From Campylobacterales bacterium (GTDB lineage: Bacteria > Campylobacterota > Campylobacteria > Campylobacterales > Sulfurimonadaceae), in contig JAPLGO010000001.1 of NCBI GenBank assembly GCA_026390115.1, positions 160,978 through 224,977 of the forward strand: a stretch of DNA of 64,000 nucleotides. The letters are read 5' to 3'. Shown piece after piece: positions 22,973 through 29,482 of this stretch (position 1 is its first letter; every line of letters begins with the position of its first letter). A program made the position numbers and the translations under genes. The notes beneath the pieces were generated by a model. It worked only from the letters and a program-made list of their open reading frames with translations. It did no database searches and was not told the DNA's origin.

Positions 22973-23060
22973 GGACAGTTGGGAGAGCGGTTGAATCTAC
23001 TACCTTGGAAAGGTAGCGTAGGGAAACCTACCGAGGGTTCGAACCCCTCACTGTCCACCA
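22973..23060 (+). tRNA. tRNA-Ser (anticodon GGA)
   Basis: An 88-base gene with a 7-bp acceptor stem (GGACAGT/ACTGTCC), the anticodon arm CTACC-TTGGAAA-GGTAG giving GGA, and a long variable arm (CGTAGGGAAACCTACC) as expected for a class II serine tRNA. The T arm is GAGGGTTCGAACCCCTC, and CCA is encoded. The last 17 bases form part of the left attachment repeat of the downstream island, so the integrated element keeps the tRNA intact. Confidence 0.96.
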
Positions 23061-23063
23061 GAA
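23044..23063. repeat. Left attachment repeat (in tRNA-Ser 3' end)
   Basis: The 20-base sequence CCCCTCACTGTCCACCAGAA covers the end of the T arm, the acceptor stem, CCA and three following bases. An exact copy occurs at 28138-28157. The pair is the signature of site-specific integration by a tyrosine recombinase at a tRNA 3' end. Confidence 0.88.
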
Positions 23064-23163
23064 GAACAAAAATGACTTCAAACACCCTAAAATAGGGACT
23101 AACACCAGCACAAAACATATAAAGAATCAACTGTATGACACTTCTAACAAAAACTATGCACCT

Positions 23164-24338
23164 TTGAGAATTTACAAAGTTCAAGATATTTACTATTACA
23201 GAAGAAAGATTAATAAAAAACAGTATAGAATTAGTTTGAAAACAAAGGATTTAAAGATTGCTTTAAATCGTAGAAAACTTTTGAACCTGCTCAATGATGG
23301 AGAATTTATGTATACATTTTCAAAAGGTGATTTTAAAATCATTTTTGAATACGACACTATGGAAGAATATAGAGAAATGTATAAAGATGCAGAAGAAGCT
23401 TATAAAAACGCAATGCTCTATAATTATGAAAGAGTTCAAACAGCTTTATCACAAGTTGATACTTCTCCTCAATCTGCTGAACACTCTATAACTTTTGAAG
23501 AATTAAAGAGTAAATTTCTTGTTATGAAAAATAAGTCAAATAAAGTTGGGGACAGTAGCTATAAGCAATATTATTCTATTTTTACCAAATTAATTAAATA
23601 TTTCAAAGACAGAAATATACATTCTCTTAACATAGAAGATTTTGAAGGATTTAGAGACTATTTAATCAGCTCTGGTCTGGTTGCCAAAACTATCAATGGA
23701 ATAATGCGAAATGTAAATCAATTTATAAAATTTGGTGTTAATTATAAATATCTCAAAGAAAATAATATTGAGGGCTTAGAGACATTAAAAGAAATAACAG
23801 TAAAAAAAGAAAATTTCACTGACGAAGAAATAAACGCTGTTCTAAATTATGAAGATATAGAACCAAATTATAAAATGGCGTTTAAAATAGCGATTTACAC
23901 AGGTATGAGAGTATCAGAAATTATCAATATTGAAAATGAAAACATAAGAGAAAAAGATAGCATTACATACATAGATTTACCTAAATCAAAGACAGATGCA
24001 GGGATTAGAGATATTCCTATTTGTGACAAACTTTTAAGCGATATAAAAAATACAAAATTTCCACTATTTCCAGAAAAACTCAAAGCGCTGTTCAAAAAGC
24101 AATATTGCGAAAACTTTATAAAATTCTTGATGTTGAAGGCGAAAAAGTATTTCACACATTTAGAGCCACTTTCATAGGCAAGGCTGTAAATACTTTCCCT
24201 GAAAAACTTCCCATTATTCAAGAAATAGTTGGACATAGCAAAAGTGATAATAGTTCTTTGACGATTGATACATACGCAAAAGGTTTTAACTTAAAGCTAA
24301 AAAAAGAAATTGTTGACGCGATAGAATATACTTCATAA
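23164..24338 (+). pseudogene. Tyrosine recombinase (integrase), frameshifted
   Basis: The first frame (23164-24177, TTG start) gives an N-terminal Arm-type region, a core-binding domain (residues about 115-215) and the catalytic TGMRVSEI arginine. The remainder, with HTFRATF, IVGHSK and the nucleophile region TIDTYAKGF, lies in another frame (24105-24338). A -1 shift in the five-A run at 24094-24098 joins them as ALFKK-AILRKLYKILDVEG, a natural-looking recombinase. The frame upstream of 23164 stays open towards the tRNA but has no ATG. It is an inactivated integrase unless the shift is a sequencing error or recoding. Confidence 0.8.
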
Positions 24339-24384
24339 TATTATTCGCTTATCTCTAAGGATGAACAAGTTCAAAATATCAGTG

Positions 24385-24427
24385 ATTGATTGATTTACAA
24401 TAGCTACGCTAGGCTAAATCAATCAAT
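24385..24427. terminator. Bidirectional hairpin between integrase and minus-strand operon
   Basis: A perfect 13-bp inverted repeat, ATTGATTGATTTA and TAAATCAATCAAT, encloses 17 bases that themselves hold TAGC/GCTA. It sits in the 96-base gap where the integrase and the 24435-25301 gene converge. That is the right place for a shared terminator, although strong T-runs are lacking. Confidence 0.5.
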
Positions 24428-24434
24428 TGCCAAT

Positions 24435-25301
24435 CTATATATCAATATCAAAGCTACTTTTTCTCTTAGTGCTTAAAATAACATCTTTGATATTTTTATT
24501 TACAAGCTCCATATTCTTATCAAACTTCTCCTGATTGTTCTCTTCAAGAGCTTTATCCATGCGATTTAGATAGATTAATACTCTTTTTTCAACCTTCTCT
24601 TCAAGGTCTTCTAAAATAGTGTCAATACTGCTTTTATACTCATTTAGTGCATCTCTTTGCTTGTCTAATTTAGATTTATTAATTGGTATTTTTTTCTTTG
24701 CCGTTGGTTTATTGGTTTTTATAACATATTCATTTATATCATAGCCTTTTGCTCTTGCTACTTCAATTGCGATATTTTTCAATAAAAATGAGTATTTCTT
24801 TTTAGACAAATCAAGTTTGACATCTTTGATATACTCTGACAGCACAAAATTAAACTGCATCATACTACCTTGCTCTTGCTTGTGTATGTTGTAGAAATTA
24901 TTGTCCTGTATATGGTTAATTATGTCTTCTCTTTTCATATCAAGATTATTAGCATCGATTAGGTTAGTAAAGAACTTTAACAATATAGACTGAATGGCGC
25001 TTTTCTCTTTTTTGTCGTCTTTGAAAGAAAAAGGAAAGTTTATTGTGAAAGAATGCCCATATTTGTTTGGTGGTTTCCCACCAACACCTTTTAATAGTTG
25101 TTTAGTATGTGCAACTTCAAGAGGAATGCACATATTTAAAAATACCTTTTGCATAGATTGAAAGTTTCTTATTGAATGACCATCTTTTATGTGATTTTTG
25201 TGATTATTATTGGTTAAATACCTTAAATAAGTCAATAACCCATTCTTGCCAGATTTAATCGTCTTTGCGATGGTTATCCAGTTTTTTAGCTTCCTGCTCA
25301 T
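24435..25301 (-). CDS. Unrecognised island protein, possibly mobilisation-related
   Basis: A 288-residue, very Lys/Asn-rich protein. Visible parts: an N-terminal GKNGLLTYLRYLTNN segment, GHSFTINFPFSF near residue 85, a helical middle with HKQEQGSMMQFNFVLSEYI (about 145-165), a basic stretch (TAKKKIPINKSKLDKQ) and a C-terminal coiled coil. The LLTYLRYLT plus beta-strand order faintly recalls small relaxases, but I see no HxH or HUH-type metal triad and do not assign it. It overlaps the upstream 94-residue gene by 4 bases (ATGA), so they form an operon transcribed toward the integrase. Confidence 0.65.
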   Translation of the reverse strand: MSRKLKNWITIAKTIKSGKNGLLTYLRYLTNNNHKNHIKDGHSIRNFQSMQKVFLNMCIPLEVAHTKQLLKGVGGKPPNKYGHSFTINFPFSFKDDKKEKSAIQSILLKFFTNLIDANNLDMKREDIINHIQDNNFYNIHKQEQGSMMQFNFVLSEYIKDVKLDLSKKKYSFLLKNIAIEVARAKGYDINEYVIKTNKPTAKKKIPINKSKLDKQRDALNEYKSSIDTILEDLEEKVEKRVLIYLNRMDKALEENNQEKFDKNMELVNKNIKDVILSTKRKSSFDIDI

Positions 25302-25582
25302 TTGTTGAAGTCTTTTAGCTCTTGTTCAAGCTGTTTTAACTCTAATTTTTTTTGTTTAATCAAATCTTTAAAATATACAATTTTATTATCTTTGATTTTT
25401 ACAAATATTTTAAGCATATGTATATTTGTTAATGTATGACTAATTTTTTCTATGCATTTGATGCTTTCACACTCTTGCATTTGCTCAATCAATTCAGCAA
25501 GCTCTTTTAGCTCCTCTTTATTAATACTATCAATACTACTCGTTAATCCGTCAATCTCTTCTTTTATATTTTCATATTTCAT
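25298..25582 (-). CDS. Small coiled-coil island protein
   Basis: A 94-residue acidic/basic helical protein with two heptad-like stretches (EELKELAELIEQMQECESIK and LIKQKKLELKQLEQELKDF) around a short beta segment (LKIFVKIKDNKIVYF). It is the first gene of a two-gene operon, with a 4-base overlap with the 288-residue protein. Size and position are compatible with an accessory or partner protein, such as a relaxosome or toxin-antitoxin type partner. Nothing specific identifies it. Confidence 0.55.
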   Translation of the reverse strand: MKYENIKEEIDGLTSSIDSINKEELKELAELIEQMQECESIKCIEKISHTLTNIHMLKIFVKIKDNKIVYFKDLIKQKKLELKQLEQELKDFNK

Positions 25583-25845
25583 TTTTTACACCTTTAAAAG
25601 TTTTATAACTCTTAATTATGCAAATGAAAAAAAATAATAGGAATAGATATGACTTTTAAAAAGGCTTATTCAAGATAGGAGAACCGTTGGTTATCTCTTC
25701 TTGCAAAGGGAAAACCCTTTTGAAACCCTTTTTTATACATATTTCTTAAAACATTAAATTTAATAAAATGTTGTTTTCACTTCTTTAAATATAATAAAAA
25801 ATGATTATTTAGGCGCTCATTTTTTCATTACGTCCCAAATAAGCA
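25583..25845. other. Short island gap with no gene seen
   Basis: An AT-rich 263-base gap between the end of the VirK-like gene and the start of the 94-residue gene, both minus-strand. It should hold the promoter of the two-gene operon. A hairpin AAAGGG-AAAA-CCCTTT at 25705-25720 could terminate transcripts leaving the VirK-like gene. Nothing else is evident. Confidence 0.45.
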
Positions 25846-26793
25846 TTAATCGCCATATGTTGTGGCATTTAAAATATTTTCAATATCTATAGAGAATTTA
25901 TCTAGCATTAAAAAGCGTTTAGTGTACATAGAGCGCTTGTTTGATTTAATTTCATCAAAACTTTTACGATTTTCGACAATCGGTAAACTGAAAAAATATC
26001 CATTAAAAATACCACCTGATTCAATCCAGTATATATCATAATCTGCTTTGAACTTTTCAGCATGTCTTGGCTTACGTGAGTGTCCAGCATGATATTTTGT
26101 TGAAATCGCATTAAGGTAATCAACTTTGAGTGTTTTGCATATTTGCCTAGTAATAAATATCATGAAATCTCGTGGTCGTACACCGTGCATAGCTTTTGTA
26201 ATGTTCCTAACCACTCTCTGTGAATATTCACTTGGACTTGGTCCTTGCATTCCGCCTATTATTGCATGCAACTTACCCTCTATTTCTGCAAACAAAAAAG
26301 TAACCGAATAAATTCTTTGGTTCTGGGCATCCAAAAAAGATAGTATAAGCTCACCTTCTTTCTCGAAAGAACCATCATAAAATAGCTTAACAATGAATTT
26401 ATCGTCTCCAAACTCAATATCTAGTAAATTAATACCTGATCTACTATACATAGCGTCTATAGACTCTTCTTTGAATTTATTTGCTATAAATCGATAATGA
26501 GATGTAATATAGTTTATTTTCTCGTAAATGCTAAATTCATATACAAGATAAGGATGGAATGGCTTACTGTATATTCTTGGGTGAGTTGAAATAATAAGAT
26601 CATAAACGGGGTGGGTATGGGTATCAAAAAAATCAAATAATTTTGTTATGAATTTTTTGTAAATTATAGATCTAGCGATAAACTTTATTTTTCTCTTAAA
26701 AGAATATTCGCAACTATTTGCTATTTGGTTTGCTTTGTATATAATCAACTGCTTTAAGCTCAACTTTTCGTTAAATCTATTAAAAATCGCCAA
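25846..26793 (-). CDS. VirK/YbjX family (DUF535) protein
   Basis: A 315-residue protein with the family hallmarks: YDGSFEKEGELILSFLD, RIYSVTFLF, IGGMQGP, TKAMHGVRPRDFMIFI, a HAGHSRKPRHAEK segment, YDIYWIESGG and KRSMYTKRFLMLD. In Shigella and Salmonella, VirK relatives affect surface proteins and resistance to host peptides; the biochemical activity is unknown. Here it is island cargo on the minus strand, 264 bases downstream of the promoter end of the two-gene operon. Length is normal for the family and the gene looks intact. Confidence 0.85.
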   Translation of the reverse strand: MAIFNRFNEKLSLKQLIIYKANQIANSCEYSFKRKIKFIARSIIYKKFITKLFDFFDTHTHPVYDLIISTHPRIYSKPFHPYLVYEFSIYEKINYITSHYRFIANKFKEESIDAMYSRSGINLLDIEFGDDKFIVKLFYDGSFEKEGELILSFLDAQNQRIYSVTFLFAEIEGKLHAIIGGMQGPSPSEYSQRVVRNITKAMHGVRPRDFMIFITRQICKTLKVDYLNAISTKYHAGHSRKPRHAEKFKADYDIYWIESGGIFNGYFFSLPIVENRKSFDEIKSNKRSMYTKRFLMLDKFSIDIENILNATTYGD

Positions 26794-27089
26794 TTTTTAA
26801 AATCTTTGAAGTATAACCACATTGAGCCAAAATTTAAATCTGATGTCTAACGAACTCTAAAATTTGGCAGTTAAATTAAAAAAAGTTACATTCTGAAACT
26901 TAAACCACCTCTTGTTTTTTTACTGTTTTATTTGAAAATTTCACCCCAAACTTATAAATATCTGAATTGATTATTCTTGATTCTTTTTTCTATAAATATT
27001 GTATATATACGAACTGCCTCCCAAATGTTTTAAAACTTTTTCGCAAAAAAAATAGCAAAAAACAAAAAAACAAAATTTTATTTCTATAA

Positions 27090-27135
27090 TTATTTAGTAA
27101 GTGAAAGATAAATATATCTTTCACTTACTAAATAA
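27090..27135. repeat. Perfect 21-bp inverted repeat with 4-base loop
   Basis: Arms at 27090-27110 and 27115-27135 are exact reverse complements (core AGTAAGTGAAAGAT/ATCTTTCACTTACT) around an AATA loop, followed by CCTTTTTGTGTTTTTT. As RNA it would be a very stable hairpin and possible terminator on the plus strand. As DNA it could be a cruciform or a protein-binding palindrome at an origin. Confidence 0.85.
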
Positions 27136-27166
27136 CCTTTTTGTGTTTTTTCTACAGCTGGAAGTT

Positions 27167-27255
27167 TGAGATTTTACAACCCATGAATTATTATTAAAGG
27201 ACGTCAGAAGCGTTTTAATAATAATTTCCCTTATTATTGTCAATGTAAAATCTCA
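27167..27255 (+). ncRNA. Nested stem-loop with mutually exclusive pairings
   Basis: An outer perfect 12-bp stem (TGAGATTTTACA at 27167-27178 with TGTAAAATCTCA at 27244-27255) encloses an inner perfect 13-bp stem (27186-27198 with 27214-27226) around a GGACGTCAGAAGCG-type loop. The 3' arm of the inner stem can instead pair with TTATTATT at about 27231-27238, so two alternative folds compete. That architecture fits a regulatory RNA or an origin element. Transcription is not shown; the strand is assumed. Confidence 0.4.
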
Positions 27256-27295
27256 CAATAAACTAAAAAAAACACCTTCTACGAAAGTATGAGCG

Positions 27296-27352
27296 TCTAA
27301 ACCTTATCTAAGTTGATTTATCAATATGATAAGAGCAAACTAATAGTTTAGA
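27296..27352 (+). ncRNA. Second nested hairpin
   Basis: TCTAAAC (27296-27302) pairs with GTTTAGA (27346-27352). Inside it CTTATC (27303-27308) pairs with GATAAG (27328-27333), and a TTGAT/ATCAA hairpin caps it. It directly follows the 27167-27255 structure, and both could belong to one RNA. No transcript evidence. Confidence 0.35.
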
Positions 27353-27385
27353 AAAAAGACTTAGCAAGGACAAGAGACCCTTAGT

Positions 27386-27428
27386 TAAGCCCCCTGCTTC
27401 TGACCTCATTTTTAATGAGAGGGGTTTA
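27386..27428 (+). ncRNA. GC-richer two-part hairpin
   Basis: TAAGCCCC (27386-27393) pairs with GGGGTTTA (27421-27428) with one G-U. CTCATT-TTT-AATGAG (27405-27419) is the apical hairpin, with an internal loop TGCTTCTGAC on one side. It is the most GC-rich spot in an otherwise very AT-rich segment, which favours a selected structure. Confidence 0.4.
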
Positions 27429-27595
27429 GGCTATCTTGTTTGAGTTAGAAATAATACAAAAATCGGCGAAAGACTATCCGCAGATAAAAATCCAAAAATC
27501 AACATTTTAAGATTACTCAAATATTATTCTTGTATTTTATATTTTTATGTATAAAATACACGCTTGAAAAAAAAGAATATATGTGACGGACACTC

Positions 27596-27734
27596 AATGA
27601 TACAATATCATTTAGTATAATATAGATACCATCTTACAACAATTTAAGAAATTGTTGTAGGGCTATTTATGCTCAAAAGCCTAAATCCACAATATTGTTA
27701 TATTATATTTCCATTTTTATTAAATTGTATCATT
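27596..27734 (+). ncRNA. Candidate multi-branched structured RNA
   Basis: An outer perfect 11-bp stem (AATGATACAAT 27596-27606 / ATTGTATCATT 27724-27734) and a second 9-bp stem (27616-27624 / 27699-27707) enclose two side-by-side hairpins: a perfect 11-bp TACAACAATTT-AAG-AAATTGTTGTA (27635-27659) and a TAGGGCT/AGCCTA hairpin (about 27658-27684). This is junction-like RNA architecture. A TATAAAAT element at about 27549-27556 lies upstream, and a hairpin plus T5 at 27776-27822 lies downstream, giving a possible RNA of about 260 bases. No known family is recognised. Confidence 0.45.
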
Positions 27735-27775
27735 ATGTCAAATAACCCATTAAAGAAAAAAAGAAATTATGAGAG

Positions 27776-27822
27776 TTTGTAAAAAAGTTAGAACGTAAGT
27801 TATTACTTTTTTACAAATTTTT
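27776..27822 (+). terminator. Intrinsic terminator at the end of the structured segment
   Basis: A perfect 13-bp inverted repeat, TTTGTAAAAAAGT (27776-27788) and ACTTTTTTACAAA (27805-27817), is followed directly by TTTTT. The stem is AT-rich but long. It is well placed to end a plus-strand RNA covering the multi-branched structure at 27596-27734. Confidence 0.55.
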
Positions 27823-28065
27823 AGTTTAAAATTACGCAGTAATTGAAAAATAAAAACCCAACAAAAAAAATCAAGCCAACGGCGAATTCAAAAAATAAAA
27901 AAATAATTTTAAAATTAAAAAAGCCAAGAGGCTATTTTATGCCTGCCGGAAGCTATTGAATAAAATAAATATTTAAATAGTCAATCATACAGTTTAGCCA
28001 CAAATTAAGTTAAATCGTTTTAAGATGATGCTAGAAAAGAACTATGATACTAAGGACATAAAACT

Positions 28066-28287
28066 ATGACACTTTCACTGTCTGACGATGATATAAAATC
28101 CCTAATTTCAGGGGTTATAGAGGGTTTAGTCAATGTCCCCCTCACTGTCCACCAGAAACGCAATAAATCCCAAAAAAATCGTACTTTCAAGGGTATCAAT
28201 AGAACATTTTTGAAACAAAATGCAAAATATTTGTTTAAAATCAAAAATTCCTTTTACATCTCTTTAAGATATAAAAAAAGGTGCTAA
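28066..28287 (+). CDS. Small ORF running across the right attachment repeat
   Basis: A 73-residue frame with AAGGA about 9 bases before the ATG. The first 24 residues (SLSDDDIKSLISGVIEGLVN) look like a genuine amphipathic helix pair. The rest is read through the attachment repeat into flanking DNA and is basic and low in complexity. It may be a small island gene, a truncated gene whose 3' end was replaced by integration, or chance. No homology is recognised. Confidence 0.35.
   Translation: MTLSLSDDDIKSLISGVIEGLVNVPLTVHQKRNKSQKNRTFKGINRTFLKQNAKYLFKIKNSFYISLRYKKRC
28138..28157. repeat. Right attachment repeat
   Basis: An exact 20-base copy of the tRNA-Ser 3' end (CCCCTCACTGTCCACCAGAA), flanked by different bases on both sides (C before; ACG after, versus GAAC after the left copy). 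It marks the distal end of the island. Confidence 0.88.
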
Positions 28288-28540
28288 AATATTTCCTCAA
28301 AACAGATAATATCGTTGTTTATATAGTTGATGAAAATTTGCAAATTATTACAATCGTTGGCATTAAAAAATGCCAAGATGATTTATAAAAAATAGTTACA
28401 CTTTGATTTTGAAGGGCTTATACTCAAGACACAGAATCTTGAACAGTCCCAAGATATTTCAAAAAATCTTCTTACATGTGTAATCAGCGTGATGAGAGTT
28501 TGATGAGCCTGTCAAACAGTTATATTTGGCAGGTTCCTTG
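28158..28540. other. Island-flanking gap with decayed sequence
   Basis: A 383-base stretch beyond the right attachment repeat, before the lipoprotein gene on the opposite strand. It contains a short toxin-like fragment (listed separately). Near 28510-28540 there is a hairpin CCTGCCAAA...TTTGACAGG (one mismatch) that may terminate the minus-strand lipoprotein transcript. No intact gene is evident apart from the ORF that crosses in from the island. Confidence 0.5.
28281..28388 (+). pseudogene. Possible C-terminal remnant of a RelE/ParE-like toxin
   Basis: From a GTG, the frame reads VLKYFLKTDNIVVYIVDE then NLQIITIVGIKKCQDDL and stops. A stop at 28272 closes the frame upstream. The VVYIVDE-x-IITIVG-K pattern resembles the last two strands of RelE/ParE-type toxins (Y-x-V/I-D followed by a V/I-x-G strand and a terminal basic/acidic helix). 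Only about 35 residues remain. The assignment is a weak pattern match. Confidence 0.3.
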
Positions 28541-29335
28541 TCATCTATGTGCTGTTCCTGAATCAGAAGTTTCACCATTTATCTTTTGTTTTAAAGGTTT
28601 TTTAGCTTTAATTTTTTCTATTTCATCAAAATTTAATGTTTGTATCAAACCTTGCGCTTCAAGATTAAACATTGTTTGTTCTTCAACAGCAAGTGCCATC
28701 TTCAAAGATGTAGCATTATAATCCAGATTGCTGTTATTCTCAAGTTCACTAAATCTTTTTAAAATAGCTTCAATTGCAATTGGTGCATTCGAATGTGAAT
28801 TATTTTTTTCAATTAATTTCTCATAAACAGCATTAAGAACAATAATGGACTTCTTTGTTGCCTTAGACGGAACTTTTAACAACTCTTCTTCTGTTGTATT
28901 TGTTTCTTGCGCTAACACAAATAATTTTTGCTCACGGATTGTTTCATTTTCATCAGCAATATATGTAGTAGTAGGAGTAATTACGTTACTGTAAGATGTA
29001 AGATTAATGTCAAGGGCAACATCCGCAGCTGTTAAATTTCCATCACCGTCAACATCAATCCAGCCACCTACAGCTGTAACAGGAAAAACAGGCTCATTTA
29101 CGAATATATATGTATTATTTGTATCACTTACCTGTACTGCAACACTGCCATTTGCATCTGTAACATTAGAATCATAAACGGCACCTCTTTCAACTACTAC
29201 ACTGTATCCTGAAATTACAGTTTGTACGGAAGCAGAAGCATCGCTTAATGAACTAGAGCTAGTTCCAGAACCACAGCCATAAAACGATAGTGTCACAATT
29301 ACCGACAATGAATGAATAAATTTTTGTTTTTTCAT
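28541..29335 (-). CDS. Lipoprotein under a c-di-GMP riboswitch
   Basis: A 264-residue protein with a lipoprotein signal (lipobox SFYGCG) and a Ser-rich tether. A beta domain follows (VVERGAVYDSNVTDANGSVA, VFPVTAVGGWIDVDGDGNLT) with a dockerin-like calcium loop (DVDGDGNLTAADVAL), then VITPTTTYIAD and a helical C-terminal half. The order GAVYD / GG / TP-T-IA resembles the duplicated domain of the large lipoprotein at 5330-7618. A GEMM-I riboswitch lies in its leader, so expression should respond to c-di-GMP, which suggests a biofilm or adhesion role. Confidence 0.8.
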   Translation of the reverse strand: MKKQKFIHSLSVIVTLSFYGCGSGTSSSSLSDASASVQTVISGYSVVVERGAVYDSNVTDANGSVAVQVSDTNNTYIFVNEPVFPVTAVGGWIDVDGDGNLTAADVALDINLTSYSNVITPTTTYIADENETIREQKLFVLAQETNTTEEELLKVPSKATKKSIIVLNAVYEKLIEKNNSHSNAPIAIEAILKRFSELENNSNLDYNATSLKMALAVEEQTMFNLEAQGLIQTLNFDEIEKIKAKKPLKQKINGETSDSGTAHR

Positions 29336-29402
29336 AATAAATCCTTTAAATTTAATGAGTTTTATGCAGATAAAAAATCTAGGAATACAAATTAGAAGAA
29401 TA

Positions 29403-29482
29403 TTGCAACCTGGCGATCTCTTATCAAAGACCCATAGCTTTCCGTCCTTGCTTCACAACAAGTTTGGCACGTTTTAACAGGT
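29403..29482 (-). promoter_or_regulatory. Cyclic-di-GMP-I (GEMM) riboswitch
   Basis: On the minus strand the sequence runs GCCAAAC, then CTTGTT-GTGA-AGCAAG (a 6-bp stem closed by a GNRA tetraloop), then GGACGGAAAGCTATGGG, then a second stem GGTCTTT-GATA-AGAGATC, then GCCAGGTTGC. These are the conserved elements of GEMM-I: the CAAAC segment, GNRA-capped stem, GGACGnAAAGC junction, second stem and GGTTGC closing strand. It lies about 70 bases upstream of the lipoprotein ATG, with AAAGGA before that start. A TGTAAAAT -10-like element is just upstream. The GEMM-Ib (cGAMP) variant cannot be excluded by eye. Confidence 0.85.

Follow-up and report, generated by a model that had tools for sequence, protein, structure and literature searches.

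A candidate large structured RNA carried by integrative elements in a Campylobacterales bacterium

The integrative element and its integrase

The window (the whole stretch of 64,000 nucleotides analysed here, from assembly GCA_026390115.1) contains an integrative element inserted at a tRNA-Ser gene, with the following features:

23044-28157: integrative element of ~5.1 kb, flanked by 20-bp direct repeats CCCCTCACTGTCCACCAGAA
22973-23060, plus strand: tRNA-Ser(GGA), the target gene, left intact (ARAGORN, Rfam)
23065-24338, plus strand: body of a tyrosine integrase, with an open part at 23065-24174, a frame change near 24120 and a C-terminal part in another frame up to 24338
24435-25301, minus strand: element gene of an unnamed family, present also on other islands of the genus
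25298-25582, minus strand: small element gene overlapping the preceding one, of no family
25846-26793, minus strand: DUF535 gene, cargo (Pfam PF04393, 3.4e-67)
27096-27945, plus strand: proposed structured RNA transcript of ~850 nt, suggested by a second copy, folding energy and kept pairs
28066-28157, plus strand: 5' end of the integrase (MTLSLSDDDIKSLISGVIEGLVNVPLTVHQK) on the attR side, whose junction translation runs in frame across att into the body

The length of the element follows from its att repeats, at 23044-23063 (the 3' end of the tRNA-Ser gene) and at 28138-28157. The integrase body matches Pfam Phage_integrase (3.9e-7) and Phage_int_SAM_5 (6.4e-7) as well as a PHROG integrase (2.9e-36). 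Since the attR-side reading frame continues in frame into the integrase across att, integration appears to part the start of the gene from its body. The same position of attP within the integrase ORF, with both parts in frame, was found in L075, a complete element at a tRNA-Asn gene of another species (L075 5973 and 10721). A further tRNA-Asn att repeat at L075 3943-5973 suggests a second, tandem element at that locus.

The protein encoded at 24435-25301 has no match in Pfam, NCBIfam or PHROG. Its relatives of 288-315 aa adjoin integrases on islands in several genomes of the genus (L042-L050), and a third island in this genome (C33:198675-199250) has a fragment of the gene with 84% identity. 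At L053 7310-13073 a member of the same family adjoins four genes that read by eye as a Tn7-type tnsA/B/C/tniQ set. Outside the element, a c-di-GMP-I riboswitch (Rfam RF01051, 55.9 bits) is located at 29401-29478 on the minus strand, upstream of a 264-aa gene (28541-29335).

A conserved block with a second copy in the same genome

Between the DUF535 gene and position 28066 there is no large ORF. The original prediction placed in this interval a stand-alone RNA gene of about 260 bases, with two closing stems around two hairpins and a further hairpin downstream, and all of these parts are present in the sequence. The 11-bp closing stem pairs 27596-27606 with 27724-27734; the second closing stem pairs TATAATATA (27616-27624) with TATATTATA (27699-27707) in 9 perfect bp, or 12 with G-U; the main hairpin (27633-27645/27649-27661) has 13 bp and the 3-base loop AAG; and the downstream 13-bp hairpin (27776-27788/27805-27817) is followed by T5 at 27818-27822. 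The region 27596-27744 folds with -30.1 kcal/mol (z -3.9, one of 200 shuffles being as good), and 27550-27880 reaches z -5.8 against shuffled sequence. Thus, the reported hairpins are real and their folding goes beyond chance.

A DNA search of the organism's own genome revealed a second copy on contig C33 (L004:9675-10560, minus strand), where its neighbours are a gene for a MobV-like relaxase and a tyrosine integrase that is broken, in the same layout as the window element, with a tRNA-Asn-type core. Beside this copy and a repressor gene there is a 260-bp direct repeat, 97% identical (L004 8811-9330). In a full alignment of the two copies, identity per 50 bases is 0.70-0.98 across most of 27150-27950, with exceptions of 0.64 in one window containing an insertion and 0.52 at the 5' hairpin, and it falls to ~0.5 or less outside 27050-27950. 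The conserved block (~27085-27945) begins with a shared TATAAT at 27085-27090 and ends with a terminator-like hairpin at 27917-27938. Both the candidate promoter and the candidate terminator were read by eye, and the TATAAT is absent from the output of the promoter scan, as it lacks a fitting -35 element. With these two signals bracketing the conservation, we infer a single transcription unit of ~850 bases. A minus-strand terminator-like site (27481-27466) is also identical in both copies. Since structure and conservation span ~27085 to 27945, the boundaries given originally were too narrow: an RNA gene on the island is favoured by the second copy and the compensatory changes described below, but not one that is self-contained in ~260 bases from near 27560. 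On the best reading, the reported hairpins would account for no more than the 3' third of a bigger structured unit.

Between the two RNA-bearing islands, integrase identity is only ~43-47%, and the RNA blocks are far closer to each other. This closeness would reflect either strong constraint or a recent exchange of the module, two explanations that are inseparable because both copies come from one genome; gene conversion or recent duplication could account for part of the identity. It might be argued on these grounds that the block is a non-functional repeat, recently copied or converted, that folds just because it contains A+T-rich inverted repeats, and it fits such a view that the only two copies share one genome and that both integrases look damaged. 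We regard it as very improbable, as the differences between the copies cluster with compensation, the edges of conservation match the transcription unit, and the folding z is below -7 (27096-27945, z -7.7; second copy, z -9.6; 20 shuffles each).

The position of the block suggests another role: in the circular form the RNA would lie directly upstream of the integrase start and could serve the integrase as 5' leader or as regulator. The distance from the end of the RNA to the attR-side start of the integrase is ~100 bases in either copy. Yet a terminator-like hairpin separates the RNA from the integrase, and L075, a related element that is complete, shares the integrase start and its leader, with a Sel1-like gene in the place of the RNA. 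The conserved integrase leader (TATGATAC..AAGGA) is thus found also where the RNA is absent, which makes the RNA an accessory module that integrase expression does not need. The integrase would be served by its own promoter-like and ribosome-site sequences further downstream, and a leader function of the RNA has little to recommend it.

Predicted structure, strand and coding potential of the block

The predicted parts of the RNA, all on the plus strand, are:

27085-27090: candidate -10 box TATAAT, within a short stretch identical in both copies
27090-27135: 5' hairpin of 21 perfect bp, replaced in the second copy by a differently sequenced hairpin at the same place
27143-27275: long 5' arm with helices GTGTTTTTT/AAAAAACAC, GAGATTTTACA/TGTAAAATCTC and AATTATTATTAAA/TTTAATAATAATT
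27276-27293: hairpin CUUCUAC-GAAA-GUAUGAG with a conserved GAAA tetraloop
27295-27360: three-way junction, with four compensatory pair changes in hairpins 27303-27333 and 27337-27349
27361-27440: nearly invariant core with UUAGC/GUUAA and AAGG/CCUU
27525-27585: conserved hairpin UGUAUUUUAUA/UAUAAAAUACA, whose 3' arm is TATAAAAT
27596-27734: revised form of the reported element, in which 11 bp close off a rod that carries the 13-bp hairpin 27633-27661 at its tip
27669-27782: ORF of 37 codons, MLKSLNPQYCYIIFPFLLNCIIMSNNPLKKKRNYESL, with AGGG ~6 nt upstream and the ribosome site within the rod (rival reading)
27776-27822: 13-bp hairpin with an inner GUAA loop and U5, the second copy differing by one compensatory change and one involving G-U
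27917-27938: terminator-like hairpin AAAAAAGCC-AAGA-GGCTATTTT, stronger in the second copy

To score pairing, one copy was folded alone and the other was scored on the predicted pairs, with the same substitutions dealt at random in 2000 simulations as the control. On the plus strand 22 predicted pairs were kept and 25 broken, against 18 and 41 expected (a result reached in 0 of 2000 simulations), and 6 changes were both-sided against 1.9 expected (P 0.012); with the other copy folded, the P values are 0.010 for kept pairs and 0.021 for both-sided changes. Kept pairs on the minus strand are not significant in either direction (P 0.21 and 0.18), while both-sided changes there also exceed simulation in one direction (P 0.006). 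The region 27273-27365 has four compensatory pairs, against zero in any slid control, and the rod 27614-27673 adds a further one. Compensatory changes in homologues had been proposed originally as a check on the RNA; they are indeed seen in the second copy, in a comparison of two sequences only, and they support the block as a putative plus-strand structured RNA. The GAAA and GUAA loops are kept across the copies, and the plus strand shows G-U at several of the kept pairs; in the helix AATTATTATTAAA/TTTAATAATAATT several pairs become G-U in the second copy. A possible pseudoknot would join the core loop ACAAGA to UCUUGU near 27434, and the long-range pairing predicted for the 850 nt is tentative.

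Hairpins of this kind could also act as single-stranded DNA, for instance at an origin of transfer or replication, and both the MobV-like relaxase on the second island and the many near-palindromic stems that fold on both strands are in line with such a role. The kept-pair signal, significant on the plus strand only, argues against it, and so do the G-U pairs and GNRA-type loops, which suit a plus-strand RNA, and the edges of the conserved block, which coincide with promoter- and terminator-like ends. A function as DNA therefore seems highly unlikely.

Comparison of the copies also changes the fold within the reported element. In the second copy two pairs of its second closing stem and one pair of its second hairpin are broken, the kind of stem-breaking change that the original prediction had named as counting against it. 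The first closing stem and the main hairpin show no differences between the copies, and covariation therefore neither supports nor refutes these two. In the revised model a predicted rod (AGUAUAA.AUAG/CUAU.UUAUGCU), in which 27614-27625 pairs with 27663-27673 and which the second copy forms when folded alone, would replace the second closing stem. The TATAAAAT element noted upstream in the original prediction is present at 27550-27557, but it forms the 3' side of the conserved hairpin 27531-27560.

The plus strand of the block contains one ATG ORF of at least 12 codons, plus its nested start. The main rival to a stand-alone RNA is accordingly that the reported part serves as messenger for a small membrane peptide of 37-38 aa, silenced by structure like a type I toxin mRNA: the perfect hairpin would sequester AGGG in its 3' arm, the rod beneath it would cover the AUG, and the 11-bp closing stem would act as a long-range lock; such a peptide system would help to retain the element in the cell. 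Type I toxins have fewer than 60 aa and are hydrophobic, with a C-terminus that is usually positive (PMC8309996), and in the AapA3 mRNA the ribosome site is hidden and a long-distance interaction is used (PMC6733600). The ORF is the only ATG frame of the block with a ribosome site (37-38 codons, AGGG spacing ~6), and it ends in the same S-L-stop in both copies despite a net 3-base insertion; an ATG ORF of at least 36 codons with such a ribosome site arises in 1.75% of shuffles. The peptide has a hydrophobic stretch followed by KKKR, and its ribosome site is buried. A minus-strand promoter-like site (27741-27713; TTGACA-17-AAAAAT) overlaps the ORF in both copies, the number of such sites being within chance.

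Against the messenger, 4 of the 5 codon changes in 31 aligned codons alter the residue, two of them putting Ser in place of Ile or Cys, and the hydrophobicity maximum falls between the copies from 2.06 to 1.44, with no sign of selection on the peptide. The peptide has neither relatives nor a Pfam match, and the two-copy codon comparison and the relative searches revealed neither peptide selection nor a related toxin family. The best candidate relative (G082, E 4e-5) was rejected, as it is antisense within a long coding frame. A messenger would also leave the other 500 conserved bases unexplained, and we consider it unlikely. The AapA/IsoA type I toxin-antitoxin systems of Helicobacter and relatives, presumably from the same phylum as the host, resemble the block in having a short ORF whose ribosome site is masked by folding, together with a long-range helix that closes the fold. 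They differ in that no sequence relation was found, the unit is here ~three times longer, its peptide lacks selection, and the counterpart of their antisense RNA is a candidate promoter-like site only.

Relatives and proposed role of the RNA

The block RNA matches no known Rfam family: there is no gathering-score match inside 26900-28300, where an E-value scan gave only sub-threshold matches to eukaryotic or unrelated families, and in scans of both copies to E<=10 no family passed its curated score. Beyond the second copy, DNA searches of phages, plasmids, the own genome and 99 relatives, and of 135 genus, 399 order and 397 phylum genomes, returned only short A+T-rich matches; two possible further copies (L020, L023) proved to be coding or unrelated. 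Two covariance models run against 399 order and 228 family genomes found the own genome only, with weak matches elsewhere (E 0.02-0.09). Motif scans of IMG/VR and GTDB gave no third copy, the sole match falling inside a G+C-rich gene and being rejected as chance. None of the related islands reached through integrase and 288-aa protein searches carries the RNA.

The best reading of these data is a new stand-alone structured RNA that would be carried by integrative elements. Specifically, we propose, with a probability of about one half, that the reported feature is the 3' domain of one ~850 nt structured plus-strand RNA with its own promoter and terminator, carried on a small integrative element and acting mainly as RNA. 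It would be transcribed from its own promoter (TATAAT 27085-27090) and end near 27940, the exact ends being approximate, and related tRNA-targeting elements may carry it as an accessory module, which would travel with them or pass from one to another. Its most likely action would be that of a folded scaffold or regulator serving the element; the analysis gave no specific support to the copy-number or defence role suggested originally.

Closest in kind are GOLLD and ROOL, large (hundreds of nt), highly folded bacterial RNAs of unknown function found on mobile elements, often near tRNA genes (PMC12286853). The block RNA is likewise large, folded and on a mobile element at a tRNA gene, but it has no covariance-model match, GOLLD and ROOL being absent at gathering score in the window and from the E<=10 matches of either copy, and it is located on integrative elements rather than recognised phages; membership of either family would further imply a homo-oligomeric RNA cage. 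More tentatively, it may represent a class of large ornate RNAs not described before, with no sequence relationship to GOLLD, ROOL or OLE, on bacterial elements with an integration-split tyrosine integrase, where it would aid the persistence or spread of the element.

In the SSV-type suicidal integrases of archaea, attP is inside the integrase gene and integration splits the gene, an arrangement that a 2021 review describes as exclusive to archaea (PMC8371274). The window element also has its attP inside the integrase ORF; it differs in its bacterial host and in that only ~30 N-terminal codons are separated from the body, and the likeness meant here is one of layout. A bacterial element seems to part the start of its integrase from the body on integration. 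Bacteria have few large structured RNAs, most of them without an assigned function, and two natural variants of one such RNA on small, defined elements would offer a simple test bed.
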